From an uncultured Bacteroidales bacterium (GTDB lineage: Bacteria; Bacteroidota; Bacteroidia; Bacteroidales; UBA932), in the NCBI GenBank assembly GCA_900320545.1, contig ONSU01000015.1:1-54069 (forward strand): a stretch of 54,069 nucleotides of DNA. The letters run 5' to 3'. Numbering within the stretch: the stretch's first letter is position 1; each line of letters begins with the position of its first letter. Positions 33,893 to 49,632 of the stretch are shown one piece after another. The notes under the pieces are model-generated. The model saw only the letters and a program-made list of their open reading frames with translations. It did no database searches and had not been told where the DNA came from. Made by a program: the position numbers and the translations under genes.

Positions 33893-34963
33893 TTATTCAG
33901 AGAATTCTTTGACATTTTTCAGGCCCGGGAGGCCGAAGTAGGCCTCGACGAGGTCGCCTTTGAGGAAAATCTGACGGCCGAGCAGGTCGGGATGGTCCAC
34001 CAGGTTGAGGGCGTCGCGCACCGGTCCCTTGGGTAGTTCGACGCTGAGGCAATACTCCTTTTCGGTGAGCGAAGAGCGGCTGGCGATGGCGAAATGGGTG
34101 TCTTTTGAAAAGGGCGGCGCGGTGTTCATCTTGCTCCCGGTAGAAGAGAGGTCGCCGCCGACGATGTAGCCGCATACCCAGACGCCGGTCACTCCGGCCG
34201 ATGCCCTGGCCTGGGAGACGCTCAGGGCGTTCCCGGGGGAGGATCCGGCCGCGCCGTCGTTTTCTTTGTAGGTATAGTCGTGGTAGACTTTGACCGTATC
34301 GACTTCGACCGAGACTGCCGCGCCGGTCACGCCGCCCGCCCCCGGGGCCGACAGCCCGACCGTGAGGATTTCGCGGGGCTCCATTTCGCGGGAGAAGAGC
34401 GTACGGGTATCGCTGTCGAGATGCAGGAGCAGCGACACCATCCCCGGTTGGAAGTAAGCCGTGCGGGTCTCGGTATAGCCGTATTCCAGACGGCCGTCCA
34501 GCGACGAAAGTTCCAGACGGCCGCCGGGATAGGCCTCCCGGAACGCCGCCGGAATCCGGAGCCGGATGCCGCACCCGAGCATCGTGCAGGATAGCGTGAC
34601 GTAGGTGGTCTTTCCTGCCTCGACCGGAACGATTTGCGTGTCGCCATAGACGGGCGAGTCGAAGGCGGGAGCGGTGAAGACGGCCGATACGGCCGATACG
34701 GTATAACTCCCCGCCGCCACTTCGAGCCGTTCAGGGGAACTTCCATAAGGCCCTTCGAACAGTACGGTCCCTTTGCTGTCGGTTACCTTTAGTATAAATT
34801 GATTTGTGTCCGGGAGGGCGGCGGCCCTGACGGCCGGGAGGAAGCGCCAGACGAGCGTGCCGGTTCCCGCGGCGGCGTTTCCGCCACCGGAGAGGAAGTC
34901 TTCGCAGGAGACTGCGGTAAGGGTCGTTGCCGCGGCGAAGGCGGCGAGAAGAAGTCGTTTCAT
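33893..34963 (-). CDS. DUF4493-domain lipoprotein with C-terminal OB-like (DUF6359-type) domain
   Basis: 356 residues. Lipobox TAVSC (Cys20). Residues about 35-200 follow the DUF4493 pattern: LVWRFLP, then NQFILKVTDSKGTVLFEGPYG, LEVAAGSYTVSAVS and DTQIVPVEAGKTTYVTLSCTM. Residues about 245-356 (SVSQARASAGVTGVWVCGYIVGG, FAIASRSSLTEKEYCLSVELP) fit an OB-fold domain like DUF6359. Surface lipoproteins of this kind are common in gut Bacteroidota; the function is unknown. It is a single gene with a TAACTTTG -7 element upstream. Confidence 0.75.
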   Translation of the reverse strand: MKRLLLAAFAAATTLTAVSCEDFLSGGGNAAAGTGTLVWRFLPAVRAAALPDTNQFILKVTDSKGTVLFEGPYGSSPERLEVAAGSYTVSAVSAVFTAPAFDSPVYGDTQIVPVEAGKTTYVTLSCTMLGCGIRLRIPAAFREAYPGGRLELSSLDGRLEYGYTETRTAYFQPGMVSLLLHLDSDTRTLFSREMEPREILTVGLSAPGAGGVTGAAVSVEVDTVKVYHDYTYKENDGAAGSSPGNALSVSQARASAGVTGVWVCGYIVGGDLSSTGSKMNTAPPFSKDTHFAIASRSSLTEKEYCLSVELPKGPVRDALNLVDHPDLLGRQIFLKGDLVEAYFGLPGLKNVKEFSE

Positions 34964-38109: not shown

Positions 38110-38164
38110 GGAACCTATACTGCTAATTTTAATAATATTTCAAAGATGTTTCAAAAATATTTCG

Positions 38165-38172
38165 TACATTTG
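38165..38172 (+). promoter_or_regulatory. -7 promoter element of the steroid-reductase-type operon
   Basis: TACATTTG fits TAnnTTTG and ends 7 nt before the first ATG, so the transcript would be leaderless or nearly so. The nearest -33 candidate is TTTC with a 23-nt gap. Confidence 0.5.
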
Positions 38173-38178
38173 TAAGTT

Positions 38179-38955
38179 ATGAATTCATTTGATATCGTTT
38201 TGTTAACTATGGCCGTCCTCGGCGTGATCGTATTCGTCTCGCTGTACTTCGTGGACGCCGGTTACGGGAAGATGATTTCTTCCAAGTGGGGCCCGACTCT
38301 TCCGAACAAACTCGGCTGGTGCCTGATGGAATGCCCGGTATTCTTTGTGGTGCTCTATTTCTGGATTACCTCCGAGGTCCGTTTCCAGCTGCCCTACCTG
38401 CTTTTCTTCCTGTTCTTTGAATTGCATTATTTCCACCGCAGTTTCGTCTTCCCGCTCCGGATGAAGGGGAAGAGCCGGATGCCGCTTTCGATCATGGCGA
38501 TGAGCATCGCCTTCAACCTCACCAACGGCTTCATCCAGGGCTGGTGGCTTTTCCGGCTGGCTCCCGCCGATCCGCACTACAGCGGCCTCTACGCGATGCA
38601 GTGGCTGTATGATCCGCGCTTCATCATCGGCGCCGTGATCTTCTTCACCGGAATGTTCATCAACCGCCAGAGCGACAACATCATCCGCAACCTCCGGAAG
38701 CCGGGCGACACCCGTCACTACCTTCCCAAGGGCGGTATGTACAATTATGTCACCTCCGCCAACTATTTCGGCGAGCTGACCGAATGGCTGGGATGGAGCA
38801 TCCTCACCTGGAGCTGGGCGGGCCTGATCTTCTTCTGGTTCACATTTGCGAACCTCGTCCCCCGGGCGAACTCCATCTATCACCGTTACGAAACCGAATT
38901 TGCGGAAGAATTCCCGCAGCGCAGGCTGAAGAGAGTCTTTCCGTTTGTGTACTAA
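38179..38955 (+). CDS. Steroid 5-alpha-reductase family membrane enzyme
   Basis: 258 residues with about six or seven membrane helices. The match to vertebrate SRD5A1/2 is close over the whole length: LMECPVFFV (Glu51, equivalent to catalytic Glu57 of human SRD5A2), HYFHRSFVFP (Tyr84, equivalent to Tyr91), and the C-terminal NADPH/substrate region GMFINRQSDNIIRNLRKPGD, ANYFGELTEWLGW, RANSIYHRYE, ending RRLKRVFPFVY. The family reduces the delta-4 double bond of 3-oxo steroids with NADPH to 5-alpha products. Gut Bacteroidales homologues are known to act on bile-acid or steroid 3-oxo-delta-4 intermediates. It is the first gene of a seven-gene operon, 6 nt ahead of an OYE-type reductase. Confidence 0.93.
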   Translation: MNSFDIVLLTMAVLGVIVFVSLYFVDAGYGKMISSKWGPTLPNKLGWCLMECPVFFVVLYFWITSEVRFQLPYLLFFLFFELHYFHRSFVFPLRMKGKSRMPLSIMAMSIAFNLTNGFIQGWWLFRLAPADPHYSGLYAMQWLYDPRFIIGAVIFFTGMFINRQSDNIIRNLRKPGDTRHYLPKGGMYNYVTSANYFGELTEWLGWSILTWSWAGLIFFWFTFANLVPRANSIYHRYETEFAEEFPQRRLKRVFPFVY

Positions 38956-38961
38956 ATAATT

Positions 38962-40230
38962 ATGTCTGAACTTTTTACCCCTTATCAACTGGGTCCTGTC
39001 ACCCTTCGTAACAGGACCGTTCGCAGTGCGGCTTTCGAGAATATGTGCCCCGGCAACAAGCCGAGTCAGATGCTATATGATTATCATACCAGTGTCGCCC
39101 GCGGCGGCATCGGCATGACCACCGTGGCCTACTGCGCGGTGGACCGGAGCGGCGTCAGCTTCGACGGACAGCTCTATGTCCATGACGAGATCAAGGAAGA
39201 TCTCAAGAAACTCACCGACGGCATCCACGCCGAAGGAGCAAAGGCCAGCATCCAGCTCGGCCACTGCGGCAACATGACCCATTTCTACACCTGCGGCAAC
39301 CAGATTCCCGTAGGGGCCTCCACCGGCTTCAACCTGTATTCTCCGACCATCGTCAGGGGACTTAAGAAGAACGAGATCGCCGAGATCGTCAAGCATTTCG
39401 GCGACGCCGTCGACTTCTGCCGCGAATGCGGATTCGACTGTGTCGAGATCCACGCCGGGCACGGCTACCTCATCTCCCAGTTCCTCTCGCCCTACACCAA
39501 CCATCGCCGCGACGAGTACGGCGGATCGCTCCAGAACCGGATGCGCTTCATGAACGAGGTGCTCGACGAAGTGATGCGCCGCGCTGGGGACGATATGGCC
39601 GTCGTGGTGAAGACCAATATGTACGACGGATTCAAGAGGGGTCTCCAGGTGGACGACTGCATCACGGTCGCCAAGGAGATCGAGAAGCATGGCGTGCACG
39701 CCCTGGTGCTGACCGCCGGCTTCGTGAGCAAGGCCCCGATGGTCGTCCTGGGCGGTGCGATGCCCCTCAAGACGATGACCCATTATATGAATCCCTGGAA
39801 ATTCGGATGGCTCCGGGTGATGGTCCGTCTCTTCGGCCGGATCATGGTTCCCACCGTTCCTTATAAAGAGATGTATTTCCTCGAGACGGCGAAGAAATTC
39901 CGCGCCGCGCTCAAGCTGCCCCTCATCTATGTCGGCGGTATCCAGAGCCGGGAGAACTGCGAGACGGTGCTCGGCGAGGGCTTCCAGCTGATCCAGATGG
40001 CCCATGTGCTGATCCAGGATCCCGCCTTCGTCAACCACATGAAGGAAGCGGATATGAGTTACCGCTCGAAGTGCGGCCGTTCCAACTACTGCGTCGGCCG
40101 TATGTATACGCTCGAGATGAAGTGCCACGAATGCGTGGAGAACCTGCCCTGCCGTCTCAAGAAAGAGATCGAAAAGGCCGAGGCCGACGCCGCGAAGAGC
40201 GTCGCCGCGGCGAAAGCCCAAGCGAAGTAG
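38962..40230 (+). CDS. Old Yellow Enzyme-type flavin reductase, candidate 5-beta-reductase
   Basis: 422 residues. A single TIM barrel (1 to about 350) of the NADH:flavin oxidoreductase/OYE family: FTPYQLGPVTLRNR, QLGHCGN, EIHAGHGYLISQFLSPYTNHRRDEYGGS and YVGGIQ. Cys371, 377, 388, 391 and 397 near the C-terminus could bind a [4Fe-4S] cluster, though the spacing is not the canonical one. It lacks the FAD/NAD domain of BaiCD/BaiH and 2,4-dienoyl reductases, so it needs an external electron donor, perhaps the oxidoreductase at 41716. Next to a 5-alpha-reductase, a stereo-complementary enone (5-beta) reductase is the leading guess. An Ala/Lys-rich tail ends the protein. Confidence 0.88.
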   Translation: MSELFTPYQLGPVTLRNRTVRSAAFENMCPGNKPSQMLYDYHTSVARGGIGMTTVAYCAVDRSGVSFDGQLYVHDEIKEDLKKLTDGIHAEGAKASIQLGHCGNMTHFYTCGNQIPVGASTGFNLYSPTIVRGLKKNEIAEIVKHFGDAVDFCRECGFDCVEIHAGHGYLISQFLSPYTNHRRDEYGGSLQNRMRFMNEVLDEVMRRAGDDMAVVVKTNMYDGFKRGLQVDDCITVAKEIEKHGVHALVLTAGFVSKAPMVVLGGAMPLKTMTHYMNPWKFGWLRVMVRLFGRIMVPTVPYKEMYFLETAKKFRAALKLPLIYVGGIQSRENCETVLGEGFQLIQMAHVLIQDPAFVNHMKEADMSYRSKCGRSNYCVGRMYTLEMKCHECVENLPCRLKKEIEKAEADAAKSVAAAKAQAK

Positions 40231-40234
40231 CCCT

Positions 40235-41014
40235 ATGTTATCACTTGTGACAGGCGCCAGCCGGGGAATCGGAATCGAATATGCGCGCACCCTGGCGAGA
40301 GATTATGGCAGTGATTTACTGATCGTTTCAAGCCACGAAGCGGACGTGCAGGGCGTGGCGGCGGACATCGCAGGCGATTATGGCGTGAACGTGATTCCGC
40401 TGGCGATGGATCTGGCGCAGCCCGACGCCGCCGAGCGGCTCTTCGCCTATACGCAGGAAAAGGGAATGGAAGTGGACGTCCTCGTCAACAACGCCGGGAT
40501 GTTCTTCTTCAATCCGCTCGTCGACACGGATATGGCACGCATCGAGCGGATGCTCACGCTCCATGTCCTCACCGTCACGAAACTCTGCCGTCTGTTCGGC
40601 GAAGTGATGTGCAGGCGGGGGAGCGGGTATATCCTCAATATGTCCTCCCTGTCGATCTGGATGGCCTATCCGGGCATCCAGGTCTACAATGCCTCCAAGG
40701 CCTATCTGTACAATTTCTCCCGGGCGTTGTGGTATGAGTTCAAGCCCAAGGGCGTGCACGTCCTGGTCGTGACGCCCGGAATGGTGGACACCACCCTGTA
40801 CGGCCTCAAGCCGGAACTCCGCGCGCTCGCGGTCCGTCTGGGAATCAACACTCCGACCCCGCGTCTGGCCAGAAAGGCCGTCCGCCGTCTCTTCCATCGC
40901 CGGAAATACTGCATGCCCGGCATTATCAACCATCTTTTCAAGCCCTTCCTCAAGCATCTCCCCGACTGGCTTGTCTTCTTTGTCATCAAAAAAATCGCAA
41001 AGTACCAGAAATAA
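40235..41014 (+). CDS. Short-chain dehydrogenase, candidate hydroxysteroid dehydrogenase
   Basis: 259 residues. Rossmann TGASRGIG (6-13), NNAG (85-88), catalytic Ser138, Tyr151 and Lys155 in the YNASK motif. The C-terminal extension (about 200-259) is basic and hydrophobic, as in 17-beta-HSD3/12-type membrane-associated SDRs. Between two enone reductases of a steroid-type operon, a 3-alpha/beta- or 17-beta-hydroxysteroid dehydrogenase role is likely but not shown; other SDRs (ketoreductases) look alike. It is not near the aryl-polyene-type operon, whose missing ketoreductase it could in principle supply. Gaps to neighbours are 4 and 8 nt. Confidence 0.85.
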   Translation: MLSLVTGASRGIGIEYARTLARDYGSDLLIVSSHEADVQGVAADIAGDYGVNVIPLAMDLAQPDAAERLFAYTQEKGMEVDVLVNNAGMFFFNPLVDTDMARIERMLTLHVLTVTKLCRLFGEVMCRRGSGYILNMSSLSIWMAYPGIQVYNASKAYLYNFSRALWYEFKPKGVHVLVVTPGMVDTTLYGLKPELRALAVRLGINTPTPRLARKAVRRLFHRRKYCMPGIINHLFKPFLKHLPDWLVFFVIKKIAKYQK

Positions 41015-41022
41015 CGCTCCGT

Positions 41023-41694
41023 ATGGACGCAGTCAAAGTCATCGAGATCAAGAAGAGTGTGTTTGCCGACAATGATGAAGATGCGGCGAAACTCCGGAAA
41101 GAATTGAAACAAAAGGGAGTGTATCTCCTCAATCTGATGTCTTCGCCGGGAAGCGGCAAGACCACGACGCTCATCCGTCTGATCAACCTACTGAAGGACC
41201 GGATCCGCATCGCCGTAATGGAAGCGGACATCGACTCGGACGTCGACGCCGTCAAGATCCGCGAGGCGACGGGGATTCCCTCCATCCAGCTCCACACGGG
41301 CGGGATGTGCCATCTGGATGCGGAAATGACGCGCCAGGGACTCGACAATGTCCCGCTGGACGGGGTGGACCTCGTCATCCTCGAGAATGTCGGCAACCTC
41401 GTCTGCCCGGCGGAATTCGACACCGGCGCCGTCCGCAACGCGATGATCCTCTCCGTTCCCGAAGGCCACGACAAGCCGCTCAAATATCCCCTGATGTTCT
41501 CCATCTGCGACATGGTCGTCATCAACAAGATGGACGTGGCTCCGTATTTCGATTTCGACCTGGAGAAATGCAGGGAGTACGTACGCCTGCGCAACCCCCG
41601 CGCAAAGGTCCTCCCGATCTGCGCCAAGACGGGGGAGGGCGTGGAGGCCCTCGCGGACTGGCTGCTCGGAGAAGTCCGCGCCTGGAAAGAGTAA
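41023..41694 (+). CDS. hypB: Nickel-insertion GTPase HypB
   Basis: 223 residues. P-loop SSPGSGKTT (40-48), AVMEADIDSDVDA, and the metal site GGMCHLDA (Cys96, His97) with NLVCP (Cys128). There is no N-terminal CXXCGC motif or His-rich tail. HypB delivers nickel, driven by GTP hydrolysis and together with HypA, mainly to [NiFe] hydrogenases. No hydrogenase or other nickel enzyme is visible in the window. It sits in the steroid-type operon, separated from HypA by the oxidoreductase gene. Confidence 0.92.
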   Translation: MDAVKVIEIKKSVFADNDEDAAKLRKELKQKGVYLLNLMSSPGSGKTTTLIRLINLLKDRIRIAVMEADIDSDVDAVKIREATGIPSIQLHTGGMCHLDAEMTRQGLDNVPLDGVDLVILENVGNLVCPAEFDTGAVRNAMILSVPEGHDKPLKYPLMFSICDMVVINKMDVAPYFDFDLEKCREYVRLRNPRAKVLPICAKTGEGVEALADWLLGEVRAWKE

Positions 41695-41715
41695 CCAACT
41701 AACAACCATATAATT

Positions 41716-44541
41716 ATGCCTGAAATGTCCACCAAGTTCGTCCCGAAACACAAGGGCGACAAGAATCCCAATCCGAAACTCCTGAAATTTGTCCGTCACG
41801 TAACGGACCGGGTTCCCGGCAAGATCAAGATGACCACCGACGCCCCGGAATACTGGGGCCTCGCCTGCATCTTCGAGGATGAGATGGATCCCGTGACGCG
41901 GGAGGCCTCCCTCGACCTGCTGCTGGATATGCTGCCGAAGAATTTCTTCAAGGTCCGCGAGCACCGGAGTTATGCGCTCCTCCACGAGTGGAACGCCAAG
42001 AAGCATTACACCCCGGACGACAAGTCCTTCGACGAACTGCTGGACAAACTCTCCTACTTCGGGATGCTGGAGTATGACTACGGCGACAAATACACCAAGG
42101 ACGGCCCCGTCCCCGGCACGACCTACAACCGCGAGGACCGCATCTACTGGGTCCCGATGTTCGTGCCCGGTTCCGCCGAGTATACCAATATGAATGTCGA
42201 CCTGATGGACAGGCATCCCGAACTGGCGATGTTCTTCGAGCGGATGACCTTCCTCCCGCTGGAGAAGATCACTCCGATGGTCCCGATGGGCGGATCCGGC
42301 ATCGGAATGCACGTCATCCCGGTGGAAAAGGCCATTTCGATGGAGAATCAGTCGGTCGACATCGAACACATCTCCTACTGGCTCAAACGCTACGAGGGCC
42401 ATCTCGGCGTGGGCATCTGCTCCTGCCGCTACGGCCGCAAGAAACTTGACGAGGGCTGTGCCGACGATTACCGCGACTGGTGCATCGGCGTGGGCGACAT
42501 GGCCGACTATCTGGCCGAGACGGGCCGCGGCCACTATATCACCTACGACGAGGCGATGGCCATCCTGAAGAAGGCCGAGGATCACGGCTTCGTCCACCAG
42601 GTCACCAACATCGACGGCGAGGGCAAGATCTTCGCCATCTGCAACTGCAACGTCAAGATCTGCAACGCCCTCCGGACCTCGCAGCTCTTCAATACTCCGA
42701 ATATGTCGCGCAGCGCGTATGTCGCCAAGGTCGATCCCGCGAACTGCGTCGCCTGCGGCCGCTGCGTGGAATATTGCCCCGCCGGCGCCGTCAGGCTCGG
42801 CCAGAAACTCTGCACCTCCCACGGCGCCGTCGAGTATCCCCGTCAGGAACTTCCCGACGCCGCCAAGTGGGGCCCGCACAAGTGGACCGAGGACTACCGC
42901 GACAAGAACCGCGTAAACTGCTATCCGACAGGTACTTCTCCCTGTAAGACCGCCTGCCCGGCGCACATCGCCGTCCAGGGTTACCTGAAGAAGGCCGCGG
43001 AAGGCAAGTATCGCGAGGCGCTCGAACTCATCAAGCGCGAGAATCCGTTCCCCGCCGTCTGCGGCCGCGTCTGCAACCGCCGCTGCGAGGACGCCTGCAC
43101 CCGCGGCACCGTCGATCAGCCCATCGCCATCGACGCCGTCAAGAAATTCATCGCCGAACAGGATCTCAAGGCCGAGACCCGCTTCGTCCCCGAAGTCAAC
43201 ATCTGTTCCAACGTGCAGGAGCGCTGGGAGGAGAAGATCGCCGTCATCGGCGGCGGCCCGGCCGGCCTGAGCTGCGCGTACTACCTCGCCACGATGGGTT
43301 ACAAGCCCACCGTCTTCGAGAAGAGTGAGGAGCCGGGCGGCATGCTCCGCTACGGCATTCCTTCCTACAAGCTCGGAAAGGACGTCCTCGCGGCCGAAAT
43401 CGACGTGATGCGCGAGATCGGCGTCGAGATCCGCACCGGCGTCGAGGTCGGCAAGGATGTTACCATCCAGGGCCTTCGCGAAGAGGGCTACAAGGGCTTC
43501 TACGTGGCAATCGGCTGCCAGGGCGGACGCCTACCCGGCATCCCCGGCGAGACCCTCCCGGGCACGACGACGGCCATCGACTTCCTCCACGGAGCCAATT
43601 GCGGCAAGGTGAAAGTCAGCGGAAAGGTCGTGGTGGTCGGCGGCGGCAATGTCGCCATCGACGCGGCCCGCGTGGCGAAACGCAGCGGCGCCTCCGAGGT
43701 GACGATGCTCTCGCTCGAGACCGAAGACATTATGCCCGCCTCTCCCGAAGAGCGCCGCGAAGCCCGTGAGGACGGTGTCGTGCTCAACCCCGGCTGGGGT
43801 CCGAAGGAGGTTCTCGGCTCGGAGAAGGTCGAAGGCATCGTCTTCAAGAAATGCACCTCCGTCTTCAACGCGGAGCACAAGTTCGCTCCGACCTATGACG
43901 AGTCGGAACTCATCACCCTTGACGCCGACATGGTCATCTTCGCCATCGGCCAGACCGTCATCCTCAAGGACCTTCTGAAGGATACCAAAGTCGAGTTCTT
44001 CCGCGGTGTCTATCCCGTCGCCGACAAACTGACCTATCAGACCGCCGAAGACGACATCTTCGTCGGCGGAGACTGCTTCACCGGCCCGAAGTTCGCCATC
44101 GACGCCATCGCCGCCGGCAAGGAGGCCGCCGAATCCCTGCACCGTTTCGTGCAGCACGGCCATCTGACCATCGGCCGCAACCGCCGCGACTTCATCGAAC
44201 TCAATAAGAAGGATATCGTCCTCGAGTCCTACGACAATTCCGCCCGCCAGGTGGAAGGGACGGCCGAGGAGCGCGATCCGTTCCGCGAATATCATCAGAC
44301 CTTTACCGAGGAGCAGGTGCGAAAGGAAACGGCCCGCTGCCTGGGCTGCGGCGCCTCCGTCGTCGATCCCAACCGGTGCATCGGCTGCGGCGTCTGCACG
44401 ACCAAGTGCGGCTTCGACGCCATCCATCTGCACAGGGAGCATCCCGAGGCCAGCCATATGGTCACTTCCGAAGACAAGTTCAGCGGCATCCTGCCGTATA
44501 TGCTGAAGCGGACAGGGAAGATTCTGTTTAAAAAGAAGTAG
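41716..44541 (+). CDS. Large multi-[4Fe-4S] FAD/NAD(P) oxidoreductase (GltD-like core)
   Basis: 941 residues, no membrane helices. Residues 1 to about 330 are an uncommon N-terminal domain with Cys235, 237, 248, 256, 309, 311 and 316, and a ferredoxin site at Cys344/347/350/354. Residues about 400-490 resemble the Fer4_20 domain of glutamate synthase small subunit (SPCKTACPAH, CGRVCNRRCEDAC). FAD fold at IGGGPAG (511-517), NAD(P) fold at VVGGGNVA (640-647), then C-terminal clusters with Cys875, 878, 888, 891, 894, 898. Such cores move electrons between NAD(P)H, FAD and Fe-S carriers. Lying between hypB and hypA downstream of two reductases, it probably supplies their electrons. No true GltB partner is present. 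Confidence 0.85.
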   Translation: MPEMSTKFVPKHKGDKNPNPKLLKFVRHVTDRVPGKIKMTTDAPEYWGLACIFEDEMDPVTREASLDLLLDMLPKNFFKVREHRSYALLHEWNAKKHYTPDDKSFDELLDKLSYFGMLEYDYGDKYTKDGPVPGTTYNREDRIYWVPMFVPGSAEYTNMNVDLMDRHPELAMFFERMTFLPLEKITPMVPMGGSGIGMHVIPVEKAISMENQSVDIEHISYWLKRYEGHLGVGICSCRYGRKKLDEGCADDYRDWCIGVGDMADYLAETGRGHYITYDEAMAILKKAEDHGFVHQVTNIDGEGKIFAICNCNVKICNALRTSQLFNTPNMSRSAYVAKVDPANCVACGRCVEYCPAGAVRLGQKLCTSHGAVEYPRQELPDAAKWGPHKWTEDYRDKNRVNCYPTGTSPCKTACPAHIAVQGYLKKAAEGKYREALELIKRENPFPAVCGRVCNRRCEDACTRGTVDQPIAIDAVKKFIAEQDLKAETRFVPEVNICSNVQERWEEKIAVIGGGPAGLSCAYYLATMGYKPTVFEKSEEPGGMLRYGIPSYKLGKDVLAAEIDVMREIGVEIRTGVEVGKDVTIQGLREEGYKGFYVAIGCQGGRLPGIPGETLPGTTTAIDFLHGANCGKVKVSGKVVVVGGGNVAIDAARVAKRSGASEVTMLSLETEDIMPASPEERREAREDGVVLNPGWGPKEVLGSEKVEGIVFKKCTSVFNAEHKFAPTYDESELITLDADMVIFAIGQTVILKDLLKDTKVEFFRGVYPVADKLTYQTAEDDIFVGGDCFTGPKFAIDAIAAGKEAAESLHRFVQHGHLTIGRNRRDFIELNKKDIVLESYDNSARQVEGTAEERDPFREYHQTFTEEQVRKETARCLGCGASVVDPNRCIGCGVCTTKCGFDAIHLHREHPEASHMVTSEDKFSGILPYMLKRTGKILFKKK

Positions 44542-44550
44542 ATCCCGTTT

Positions 44551-44898
44551 ATGCACGAACTGGGAATCGTATTCTACATCATCCGCGATGTCAAAAAGGC
44601 GGCGGAGGAGAACGGCGTGTCGCATGTCTCCACCGTCGTGATGAACATCGGGGAAGTGTCCACCGTCATCCCGGAATATCTCACCGACTGCTGGCGCTGG
44701 GCCGCCGACAAGGAAGATTTGCTCCGGGACTGCGAACTCCGGTGCGATATCATTCCGGCGGTGACGCGCTGCGAGGACTGCGGCAAGGAGTACGGGACGG
44801 TCGCCCACGGCAAAGTCTGCCCGCACTGCGGGAGCGAGAACACCTTCCTGTTGCGGGGAAATGAGGTGGAAATCAAAGAAATCGTTGTTAATTCCTAA
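44551..44898 (+). CDS. hypA: Nickel metallochaperone HypA
   Basis: 115 residues. The N-terminal MHE (nickel ligands Met1, His2, Glu3) and four zinc Cys at 74, 77, 90 and 93 (CX2C...CX2C) are all present. It pairs with HypB in nickel delivery. Other Hyp proteins (C, D, E, F) and hydrogenase subunits are absent here. It follows the oxidoreductase by 9 nt and precedes the membrane protein by 20 nt. Confidence 0.93.
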   Translation: MHELGIVFYIIRDVKKAAEENGVSHVSTVVMNIGEVSTVIPEYLTDCWRWAADKEDLLRDCELRCDIIPAVTRCEDCGKEYGTVAHGKVCPHCGSENTFLLRGNEVEIKEIVVNS

Positions 44899-44918
44899 TA
44901 ACCAAATTTATTTCAATT

Positions 44919-46031
44919 ATGTTTTTTCAAGTTTATGGGGCTAACGCCCTTTCGCAGTGGGGAATGCTGCTGGTCGTCCTGGCCGGCCTGATCCTCCTGA
45001 ATGAATTCGCCCGTCGCACCAAACTCGGCGGCATCATCACGTTCCTCGCGGTTCCCGTCGCCCTGACCGCCTACTTCCTCGCCATCTGGATCGGCGTGAA
45101 GGTCGGTGCGCAGTGGGCCCTGGAGAACCAGACCCACGTCTATATGGCCGGATGGTTCCACTATGCCAAGCTCTATGCGGCGACGGCCGGGTGTATCGGC
45201 TTTATGATGATCAAGTACAAATGGGGCGTCGGCGCCAAAGAGTGGTTCAAGCCCTTCCCGTTCGTGATCGTCGGCATCAACATCCTCATCGCCTGCGTCT
45301 CCGATTTCGAGAGCGCCATCAACGGCTGGAACAAGTGGTGGCTCACCGCTGAAGGTGTCTGGCAGTACGGCGGCTGGCACAATGTGATGAACGGCGTGGC
45401 CGGTCTCATCAACATCTTCTGTATGACCGCCTGGTGGAAGGTCTATCCGTCGAAGGACAAGAAGGATATGATCTGGGCCGATATGACCTGGGTCTACATC
45501 GTCATCTACGACATCTGGAACTTCGCCTACACCTACAACTGCCTCCCGACCCACAGCTGGTACTGCGGTATCGCGCTGCTCCTTGCCCCGACCGTGGCGG
45601 CCCTCCTCTGGAACCGCGGCGGCTGGATCCAGAACCGCGCCAACACCCTCGCCATCTGGTGTATGTTCGCACAGGTGTTCCCGCTCTTCCAGGAGACCTT
45701 TATGAACGGTAAGCAGTGGTTCAGCTGGGCCACCCTTCCCGTCCTCTATCCGGAAGGCGTCGGCACCATCGAGAAACTTTATGCGACGGCTGGTTTCGTG
45801 GGAGAAAAACTGACTCCTGAAATGATCGGAACGACCGTGGATCCCTCTCAGGTGGCTGCCAATCCCACGATGATGACCGTCATCAGCGCCCTCGCCCTCG
45901 TCACCAACCTTATCGCCATCTGCTACATCATCTACGTTGCCAAGAAGCGTCACATCAATCCTTACAAGGAAGACGTCTTCGTCAACCAGAAGTACTATCA
46001 GGATGCGATGGCCCGTGCCGATCTCAGCTAG
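44919..46031 (+). CDS. Multi-pass membrane protein (DUF5692-like)
   Basis: 370 residues with about nine or ten hydrophobic segments. Sequence features include several Trp-rich turns (NGWNKWWLTAEGVWQYGGWHN, WADMTWVYIVIYDIWNF) and few charged residues in the helices. It resembles DUF5692 family proteins by memory; the function is unknown. As the last gene of the steroid-type operon it could be a transporter or a membrane redox partner. A strong terminator follows 24 nt after the stop. Confidence 0.65.
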   Translation: MFFQVYGANALSQWGMLLVVLAGLILLNEFARRTKLGGIITFLAVPVALTAYFLAIWIGVKVGAQWALENQTHVYMAGWFHYAKLYAATAGCIGFMMIKYKWGVGAKEWFKPFPFVIVGINILIACVSDFESAINGWNKWWLTAEGVWQYGGWHNVMNGVAGLINIFCMTAWWKVYPSKDKKDMIWADMTWVYIVIYDIWNFAYTYNCLPTHSWYCGIALLLAPTVAALLWNRGGWIQNRANTLAIWCMFAQVFPLFQETFMNGKQWFSWATLPVLYPEGVGTIEKLYATAGFVGEKLTPEMIGTTVDPSQVAANPTMMTVISALALVTNLIAICYIIYVAKKRHINPYKEDVFVNQKYYQDAMARADLS

Positions 46032-46055: not shown

Positions 46056-46088
46056 GGATGCGTCGGAATTCCGGCGCATCCTTTTTTT
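46056..46088 (+). terminator. Intrinsic terminator of the steroid-type operon
   Basis: Stem of 11 pairs: GGATGCGTCGG with CCGGCGCATCC, loop AATT, then seven T. The T-run doubles as the -33 element of the next promoter. Confidence 0.9.
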
Positions 46089-48043: not shown

Positions 48044-48130
48044 ATGGAACTGAAAGATCGTTTTGCGCTTATGAACGCGGCCTTTGACCAGAGCCCTTAC
48101 AAGGTAAACAAGGAACTTGAGGTTATTTGA
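48044..48130 (+). pseudogene. Possible truncated XRE/HTH remnant (28 residues)
   Basis: Starts MELKDRFALMNAAF and ends in VNKELEVI. This resembles the N-terminus of XRE-type DNA-binding proteins up to the first helix of the HTH, then stops. It lies 5 nt before the first dyad. It could be chance. Confidence 0.3.
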
Positions 48131-48286: not shown

Positions 48287-49632
48287 ATGGCTTTAAAGAA
48301 AGGGAGAATACTCGTAGTGGATGATAACGCCGGCATCCGACGGGCGTTGGAGATTTTGTTGCCGACTCATTTTGCAGAGGTGAAGACGATTCCATCACAT
48401 TGCTGTCCTCGCTGGAGCAGTTCCGGCCGGATGTGGTGCTGCTGGATATGAACTTCAACACTTCTATCAATACCGGCAACGAAGGCCTCTACTGGGCTGG
48501 AGAAATCAAGAAGATGGTGCCGGAAGTGGAGGTTGTCCTCTTCACCGCTTATGCCGATATCTCCCTGGCGGTAGAGGGGATGAAGCGCGGCGCGTTTGAT
48601 TTCATCGTGAAGCCTTGGGACAATGAGAAACTGATTGAGGTGCTGACGGCAGCGAGGGATAAAGCCAGGAAGGCGATGAAGCGGGATGGACGGAAGGCCG
48701 ATGCACCTGCGGGCGACAGTCCGATGTTCTGGGGCACCTCCAAGCCGATGGCGGCCATCCGGAAGACGCTGGAAAAGATTGCGCCCACGGACGCCACCGT
48801 GCTCATTACCGGCGAAAACGGCACCGGCAAGGATGTACTGGCGCGGGAAATACACGCCCACAGCCTCCGGAGCGGGAAGCCGATGGTAGCGGTGGATGCC
48901 GGCGCCATCACGGAAACACTGTTCGAGAGCGAACTTTTCGGCCACGTCAAGGGCGCTTTCACCGATGCTCACGCAGACCACGTGGGCAAATTCGAGCAGG
49001 CCGACGGGGGGACGCTCTTCCTCGATGAAATAGGCAATATCCCCCTGCACCTGCAGGCCAAGCTGCTGCGGGTGATTCAGAACCGGAGTGTAGTTCGTGT
49101 GGGCGGCTCCCAGGCCACTCCCGTGAACATCCGGCTGATATGCGCAACCAATATGGACTTGGAGCAACTGGTACGGGAAGGCCGGTTCCGGGAAGATTTG
49201 TACTACCGTATCAACACCGTCCATATCTCCCTGCCGGCCCTGAGGGAACGGCGCGAGGACATCGTGCCGCTGGCGCAACTGTTCCTGGAGCGCTTCGCAG
49301 AGAAATATCATCGACCATTGACGGGGATTGCTCCGGACGCGGCGGAGATGCTGACGGAGGGTCGCTGGAGCGGCAATATCCGCGAGCTGCAGAACTGCAT
49401 CGAGAAAGCGGTCATTCTTTCTGAGGGTCGCGAACTTACGGCAAAAGACATACAGCTGGAGTCGGTGGCCAAACCGGTCGGAACTACCATCAAGGCCGTG
49501 AATGAGGCCGAGGAAGAGCGGCTGGTCCGCGAGGCGATGGACCGGACGGACGGCAATATTTCAGCTGCGGCAAAGATGCTGGGTGTGAGCCGGCCCACGC
49601 TGTACGCAAAACTGAAGAAGTACGGACTATGA
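48287..49632 (+). pseudogene. Sigma-54-dependent response regulator (NtrC type) with frameshifted receiver
   Basis: The receiver starts at the ATG at 48287 (GRILVVDDNAGIRRALEILL with the acidic pair). At about 48395-48397 the frame shifts by loss of one base (VKTIPS then TLLSSLEQF), and continues in a second frame with VVLLDMNF (phospho-Asp), VLFTAYAD and KPWD. Then comes the AAA+ domain: Walker A GENGTGKD (48811-48834), GAFTDA in place of GAFTGA (48952-48969), FLDEIGN, and a Fis-type HTH at the end. Everything after the shift is intact (48400-49632). It would activate sigma-54 promoters. The shift is either a sequencing/assembly error or a real lesion. It overlaps the kinase gene in ATGA. 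Confidence 0.75.

Follow-up and report, generated by a model that had tools for sequence, protein, structure and literature searches.

The 54,069-nucleotide (nt) contig ONSU01000015.1 of an uncultured Bacteroidales bacterium (GCA_900320545.1), the whole of which we call the window, carries seven genes on its plus strand, A through G, separated by gaps of 4–21 nt according to their open reading frame (ORF) coordinates. The first three are predicted to encode an SRD5A-like steroid 5-alpha-reductase of 258 residues (A, 38179–38955), a short flavin reductase of the old yellow enzyme (OYE) type with 422 residues (B, 38962–40230), and a short-chain dehydrogenase (SDR) of 259 residues (C, 40235–41014), with 6 nt between A and B and 4 nt between B and C. 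A second group begins 8 nt beyond C and comprises genes for a HypB-like nickel GTPase of 223 residues (D, 41023–41694), an IsrA-type flavin adenine dinucleotide (FAD)/iron-sulfur (Fe-S) oxidoreductase of 941 residues (E, 41716–44541), a HypA-like nickel chaperone of 115 residues (F, 44551–44898), and a DUF5692 protein of 370 residues with several hydrophobic stretches (G, 44919–46031); the gaps here are 21 nt (D-E), 9 nt (E-F) and 20 nt (F-G). Upstream of A by 6 nt, and also on the plus strand, TACATTTG (38165–38172) is a candidate -7 promoter element by its match to TAnnTTTG, the Bacteroidales motif. A terminator-like hairpin with 11 base pairs, of which 8 are G-C, and a run of seven T behind it closes the unit (46056–46081, plus strand); it is the first-listed of 10 such structures in a terminator scan, against 9.5 expected from shuffles. 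Genes A through G most likely form one transcription unit made of two modules, A–C and D–G. The first-pass annotation of this DNA had located A, B and C and their 4–6 nt gaps correctly, and its claim that they head a larger operon is true of the layout. It overlooked that D–G, the remainder of that operon, is an IsrA-type cassette in its own right, which most often has a different genomic location.

The family assignments of A–C come from Pfam and NCBIfam models and from alignments of relatives. The A protein scores 149 bits against the Pfam model Steroid_dh (cut-off 22.6), 20.5 bits against DUF1295, just above the cut-off of 20.4, and 20.3 bits against PEMT. A profile built from 20 aligned relatives, in all of which Glu51 and Tyr84 are invariant, matches the bacterial chain 7c83 at 6.6e-69 and the human SRD5A2 chain 7bw1 at 4.1e-52 over nearly their full length (235 and 180 bits); in both chains the two residues align with a Glu and a Tyr, which in 7bw1 are presumably Glu57 and Tyr91 of SRD5A2. 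The same profile search of Protein Data Bank chains also returns a very-long-chain enoyl-CoA reductase, at 52 bits. A is thus like both SRD5A chains in its near full-length match and its aligned Glu and Tyr, and differs from them in its operon context and in being known from sequence alone. The B protein, the only PF00724 match in a genome sequence that is 93.3% complete, scores 209.9 bits against that OYE barrel model (cut-off 27). Aligned with YqjM (1z41), its His164, His167 and Tyr169, the presumed active-site residues, are each 0.99 conserved among 131 sequences. Three cysteines, at 371, 377 and 388, are invariant in the same alignment, and the protein ends after this region; Pfam finds no FAD domain in B, and the C-terminal FAD half of BaiCD is absent. 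In the C protein, Ser138, Tyr151 and Lys155 are conserved among 85 sequences. The NCBIfam models do not separate it from other SDRs, and its substrate is not readable from them; we regard it as a candidate 3beta-hydroxysteroid dehydrogenase (3beta-HSDH).

These results bear out most of what the first-pass annotation had read from the DNA: an SRD5A-like first protein with both catalytic residue equivalents, Glu51 and Tyr84, an OYE-type second protein, as PF00724 confirms, and an SDR as the third, supported by the family models and by the Ser, Tyr and Lys residues. A grouping of the first protein with DUF1295-type proteins, which that annotation had named as evidence against itself, is not what the profile scores give (149 versus 20.5 bits). 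By the NCBIfam model NF041087, B is not a BaiCD, one of the families that the annotation had listed for a search: it reaches 194.4 bits, far under the cut-off of 825, with the best stretch at residues 3–258. B shares with BaiCD and with the Clostridium 5-beta-reductase ci2350 the OYE superfamily and a proposed role on 3-oxo-delta-4 substrates (PMC12238238, from the part of that paper available to us), but it differs from BaiCD in its length of 422 residues and in lacking the FAD/NADH half.

By gene content, A–C matches the cluster of 5-alpha-reductase (5AR), flavin oxidoreductase (5-beta-reductase) and 3beta-HSDH genes that the Honda group described in Parabacteroides merdae and other Bacteroidota (PMC10382948, PMC9645264 and PMC12789469, each available to us in part). 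A–C alone is therefore, by analogy, a further member of a kind of cluster already described, and the earlier statement that such a module is known from other gut Bacteroidales such as Parabacteroides agrees with PMC10382948. Disruption of the P. merdae 5AR prevented the formation of allolithocholic acid (alloLCA) derivatives (PMC10382948). The likeness is one of description, the same three kinds of gene clustered in gut Bacteroidota, and not of direct protein comparison; unlike the P. merdae cluster, in the portions of those accounts open to us, A–C here runs on into genes for HypB, an IsrA-type reductase, HypA and DUF5692.

The A–B–C arrangement recurs widely. A match to A was found in 101 of 393 Bacteroidales genomes (E-values up to 0.001, weak and partial matches counted). 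At E-values up to 1e-20, the window's family gave 83 of 199 genomes with a match and its genus 123 of 250. Of the 20 order-survey loci, 19 have B behind A and the other holds just 0.9 kb of contig past A; among short loci, with that of the window counted, B is present in 58 of 59. Of the named A loci (the best 80 of 592, with matches below 60 bits dropped), 71 have B no more than 400 nt from A, 5 have it farther away and in 4 it is not seen; C comes next after A–B in 54 of the 72 that extend at least 2.6 kb downstream. These named loci are mostly ruminant and horse metagenome-assembled genomes titled Paludibacteraceae or Bacteroidales, and P. merdae does not appear in the best 80; a Phocaeicola massiliensis record holds A–B at 59 and 62% identity. 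The sets of loci overlap, some named records being the same genomes as unnamed entries. Plasmid records yielded two matches to A and one full-length E; no relatives of either were found on viral contigs.

The proteins of the second module point in another direction. D scores 237.2 bits against TIGR00073 (HypB; cut-off 121.2), with Cys96-His97 and Cys128 conserved among 69 sequences. F scores 103.3 bits against the Pfam HypA model (cut-off 28.9) and 70.5 bits against TIGR00100 (HypA), under the NCBIfam cut-off of 88.1; its His2 and both CxxC motifs are conserved among 55 sequences. E consists of an N-terminal part without a family assignment and an FAD part (PF14691 and PF07992 in Pfam) with Fer4 motifs at both ends; over residues 504–749 the BaiCD model gives a weak match with its FAD half (61.9 bits). 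Two CxC motifs, at 235/237 and 309/311 with 72 residues between them, are invariant among 71 sequences, as are most of the other cysteines. G is the only DUF5692 match in the genome. Single-sequence structure predictions for G and for the N-terminal part of E gave a mean predicted local distance difference test score of 42 and 35, respectively, too low to interpret.

The nearest described counterpart of E is IsrA, the putative isoprene reductase of Acetobacterium wieringae and founding member of clade 9 (Kronen et al. 2023, PMC10134865, available to us in part and the source of what follows on IsrA). IsrA has 901 residues, PF14691, PF07992 and Fer4, and CxC motifs at C180/C182 and C254/C256; a six-cysteine site was suggested by its authors to bind nickel. 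Among 988 IsrA homologues, co-occurrence was 0.73 for HypA, 0.56 for HypB and 0.4 for DUF5692. E and IsrA, compared here by description, are both FAD/Fe-S proteins of about 900 residues with two N-terminal CxC motifs at the same 72-residue spacing (C182 to C254 in IsrA), and HypA and HypB neighbours with DUF5692 nearby are common to clade 9 and to D–G. Judged by its predicted proteins, D–G is a cassette of the IsrA clade 9 type. It differs from the isr operon of A. wieringae, which has five genes including two for HypA and a separate ferredoxin; 41023–46031 contains one HypA gene and no ferredoxin gene, and it sits behind a steroid-type module. A role of D and F in hydrogenase maturation is unlikely because the window's genome, at 93.3% completeness, shows no [NiFe] hydrogenase large subunit, and Kronen et al. 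(2023) likewise noted none in their strain (PMC10134865). A. wieringae strains with such a gene cluster convert conjugated dienes to monoenes (PMC10134865, PMC12509576), and a 2025 announcement names the genes a putative diene reductase cluster (PMC12509576).

The cassette is common in the genus and usually lies elsewhere than behind A–C. Among the matches listed in the order survey, only G000 and G201 (89%) align with E over its whole length; the others align with its GltD-like part, from about residue 390 on. The cassette was surveyed with residues 1–390 of E as the query, some matches being cut by contig ends. This part matches 16 of 199 family genomes, one of them weakly, and 106 of 250 genus genomes, or 105 once a weak 36% match in G770 is dropped. 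In 74 other cassette loci (13 from the family, 60 from the genus, and L326), the order D–E–F–G is found in 53, is incomplete in 16 and is rearranged in 5 (L110, L217, L221, L219 and L222), in which the DUF5692 protein is about 56–68% identical to that of the window. Of the 74 loci, 56 also code for a small membrane protein of about 111 residues (as in L208), and 46 have its gene between F and G; the window's cassette, with its F-G gap of 20 nt, holds no convincing match to it. Outside the phylum, a record of Subdoligranulum variabile (Clostridia) listed as a plasmid has D–E–F–G in the same order at 72, 62, 53 and 54% identity. In that record (L326, 7310–12890) the whole cassette lies in an unannotated stretch and is followed by a methyltransferase gene.

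The join of the two modules is not peculiar to one assembly. Genome G625 carries the ORF for an M16-type peptidase and then A–B–C–D–E in the same order as the window until its contig ends, with a C-D gap of 7 nt, and its DNA is 88% identical to the window over 38135–42372, unbroken across the join. A chimeric assembly is ruled out because this second genome has the same join. Genome G783, from another close relative, has the same M16–A–B–C site without D–G: homology runs to the final base of C (41014), breaks off there and restarts at 48082, and its cassette is on another contig. Directly behind C, in the cassette's place, G783 has a gene for a major facilitator superfamily transporter (L227, 2189–3589), a candidate transporter for the module's substrate. 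A tree of E places G783 in a 51-row group (95/95) that excludes the window and G625, as judged from the first 219 residues with bootstrap not settled. D–G would have been gained right behind C in the lineage of the window and G625, or lost from the site in G783. G721 has the reverse arrangement, D–E–F–G followed by A and B, with A 21 or 27 nt after G depending on the start codon, and in G618 A–B–C lies about 6.9 kb ahead of the cassette. G618 continues behind A–B–C (L240, 8417–11236) with another SDR gene, an esterase gene and a gene for a flavodoxin, which may supply the short OYE with electrons. From match tables read by eye, A and E share a contig in 5 of the 50 genus genomes that have both: the window, G625, G721, G618 and G793, where they are 71 kb apart.

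We propose that two reductive modules are carried on one transcript, with A–C acting on ring A in bile acids or steroids and D–G on a conjugated double bond of a lipid, and we put the probability of this reading at about two in three. Judging from the families and the described cluster, C would interconvert a 3-hydroxyl and a 3-oxo group, the membrane SRD5A homologue A would reduce the 3-oxo-delta-4 enone to a 5-alpha product, and B, a flavin mononucleotide enzyme, would act at the 4,5 double bond on the beta face; jointly they would turn bile acids or steroids into flat iso-allo forms. For D–G we follow Kronen et al. (PMC10134865), whose account is itself a proposal: HypB (D) and HypA (F) would deliver nickel, E would take electrons from NAD(P)H and relay them by way of FAD and Fe-S clusters to a site rich in cysteine, perhaps with nickel, at which a conjugated double bond is hydrogenated, and G would be its membrane partner. 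The shared transcript, if it forms as predicted, suggests, without proving, that both modules act on one lipid class. What is unexpected here is the continuation of the operon into an IsrA-type cassette, beyond the known A–C cluster.

Several observations weigh against this reading. Genes A through G are known from their coding sequences only, so that all substrates, the nickel in E and co-transcription are inferred, and E is likened to IsrA, and A–C to the P. merdae proteins, by description rather than by sequence. Genome-level co-selection of A and E was not found: the 250 genus genomes include 50 with both, 55 with E only, 73 with A only and 72 with neither (Fisher p 0.70). Among the 20 A loci of the order survey no E or G was seen, and none is present in the named A loci (the best 80 of 592, of which 55 hold 5.5 kb on both sides). 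Nor does physical linkage argue strongly for a functional tie: outside the window and G625, a distance of up to 3 kb takes in 1 join, with 0.12 expected (P 0.11), and one of up to 10 kb takes in 2, with 0.4 expected (P 0.06); both estimates ignore contig breaks.

We give nearly even odds, if slightly unfavourable ones, to a chance passenger, a cassette that serves another lipid, conjugated fatty acids for example, and that came to lie behind C and is now driven by the promoter of C; the arrangement we propose is compatible with this. The cassette keeps diverse company: A occurs in 1 of the 74 other cassette loci, against 7 of the 74 for each of three other ORF clusters within 4 kb of the cassette, two of which we read as GlpA/GlpB-like. 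Kronen et al. report that both A. woodii and A. fimetarium have an oleate hydratase close to clade 9 genes (PMC10134865), and the absence of enriched co-occurrence of A and E in the genus fits as well. A passenger is harder to reconcile with the retention of the join in a second species, G625, and with the cassette that lies some 21–27 nt upstream of A–B in G721.

A more specific link between the modules, which we consider unlikely, is that the diene which E hydrogenates is a conjugated dienone of a steroid or bile acid (3-oxo-delta-4,6 or delta-1,4) and that A or B finishes the reduction, so that the operon would handle dienones beyond the reach of A–C alone. The 3-oxo-delta-4,6 bile acids are intermediates of 7-dehydroxylation. 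Operon-type joins occur in two orders, A–B–C–D–E–F–G and D–E–F–G–A–B, and the diene-to-monoene conversion by A. wieringae strains with a like cluster is in keeping with this chemistry, but the weak linkage outside the window and G625 at both distances speaks against it. Stated in full, as a two-stage steroid or bile-acid hydrogenation operon of seven genes, in which a nickel-chaperoned, IsrA-type E reduces the distal dienone bond and the 5AR/OYE/HSDH set completes ring A, the idea is, if anything, marginally less probable still. Our literature search, which covered some papers in part, found none that gives IsrA-type enzymes steroid chemistry or joins them with a 5AR/OYE/HSDH module.

It is also improbable, a little more so than the dienone scheme, that A–C acts on a non-steroid lipid enone, such as a polyprenol or a triterpenoid from the diet. 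The substrate is not readable from the sequence, and the A profile does match the very-long-chain enoyl-CoA reductase; however, its SRD5A matches are far stronger, and the loss of alloLCA derivatives on disruption of the P. merdae 5AR, reported in PMC10382948, also tells against such a substrate. Least probable of all, we think, is that E donates electrons to B, a notion that draws on the ending of B after its Cys region without the FAD/NAD(P)H half of BaiCD, and on the GltD/Nfn-like half and weak BaiCD match of E, but E cannot be a general requirement for B, since most of the 139 B relatives within 15% of its length (longer forms being uncounted) have no E seen nearby.

Two further features of the window lie outside the operon. 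A gene with DUF4493 and DUF6359 (33893–34963) stands between an ORF for a UvrD-type helicase and one for an M16-type peptidase, the labels of these two flanking ORFs being assigned by reading and not by a family model. Downstream, at 48287–49632, a sigma-54 response regulator starts with ATG at 48287, and a long ORF goes on in another frame from 48400; the gene looks frame-broken.

With A–C, one more bacterium joins those that are candidates for producing flat iso-allo bile acids or 5-alpha steroids. IsrA clade 9 is a large family, most of it uncharacterised, and the join of C to D offers a concrete, though weak, clue to its substrates. Specialists would find nickel-dependent alkene hydrogenation in gut bacteria surprising; should the cassette be merely a passenger, known biology is extended only modestly.

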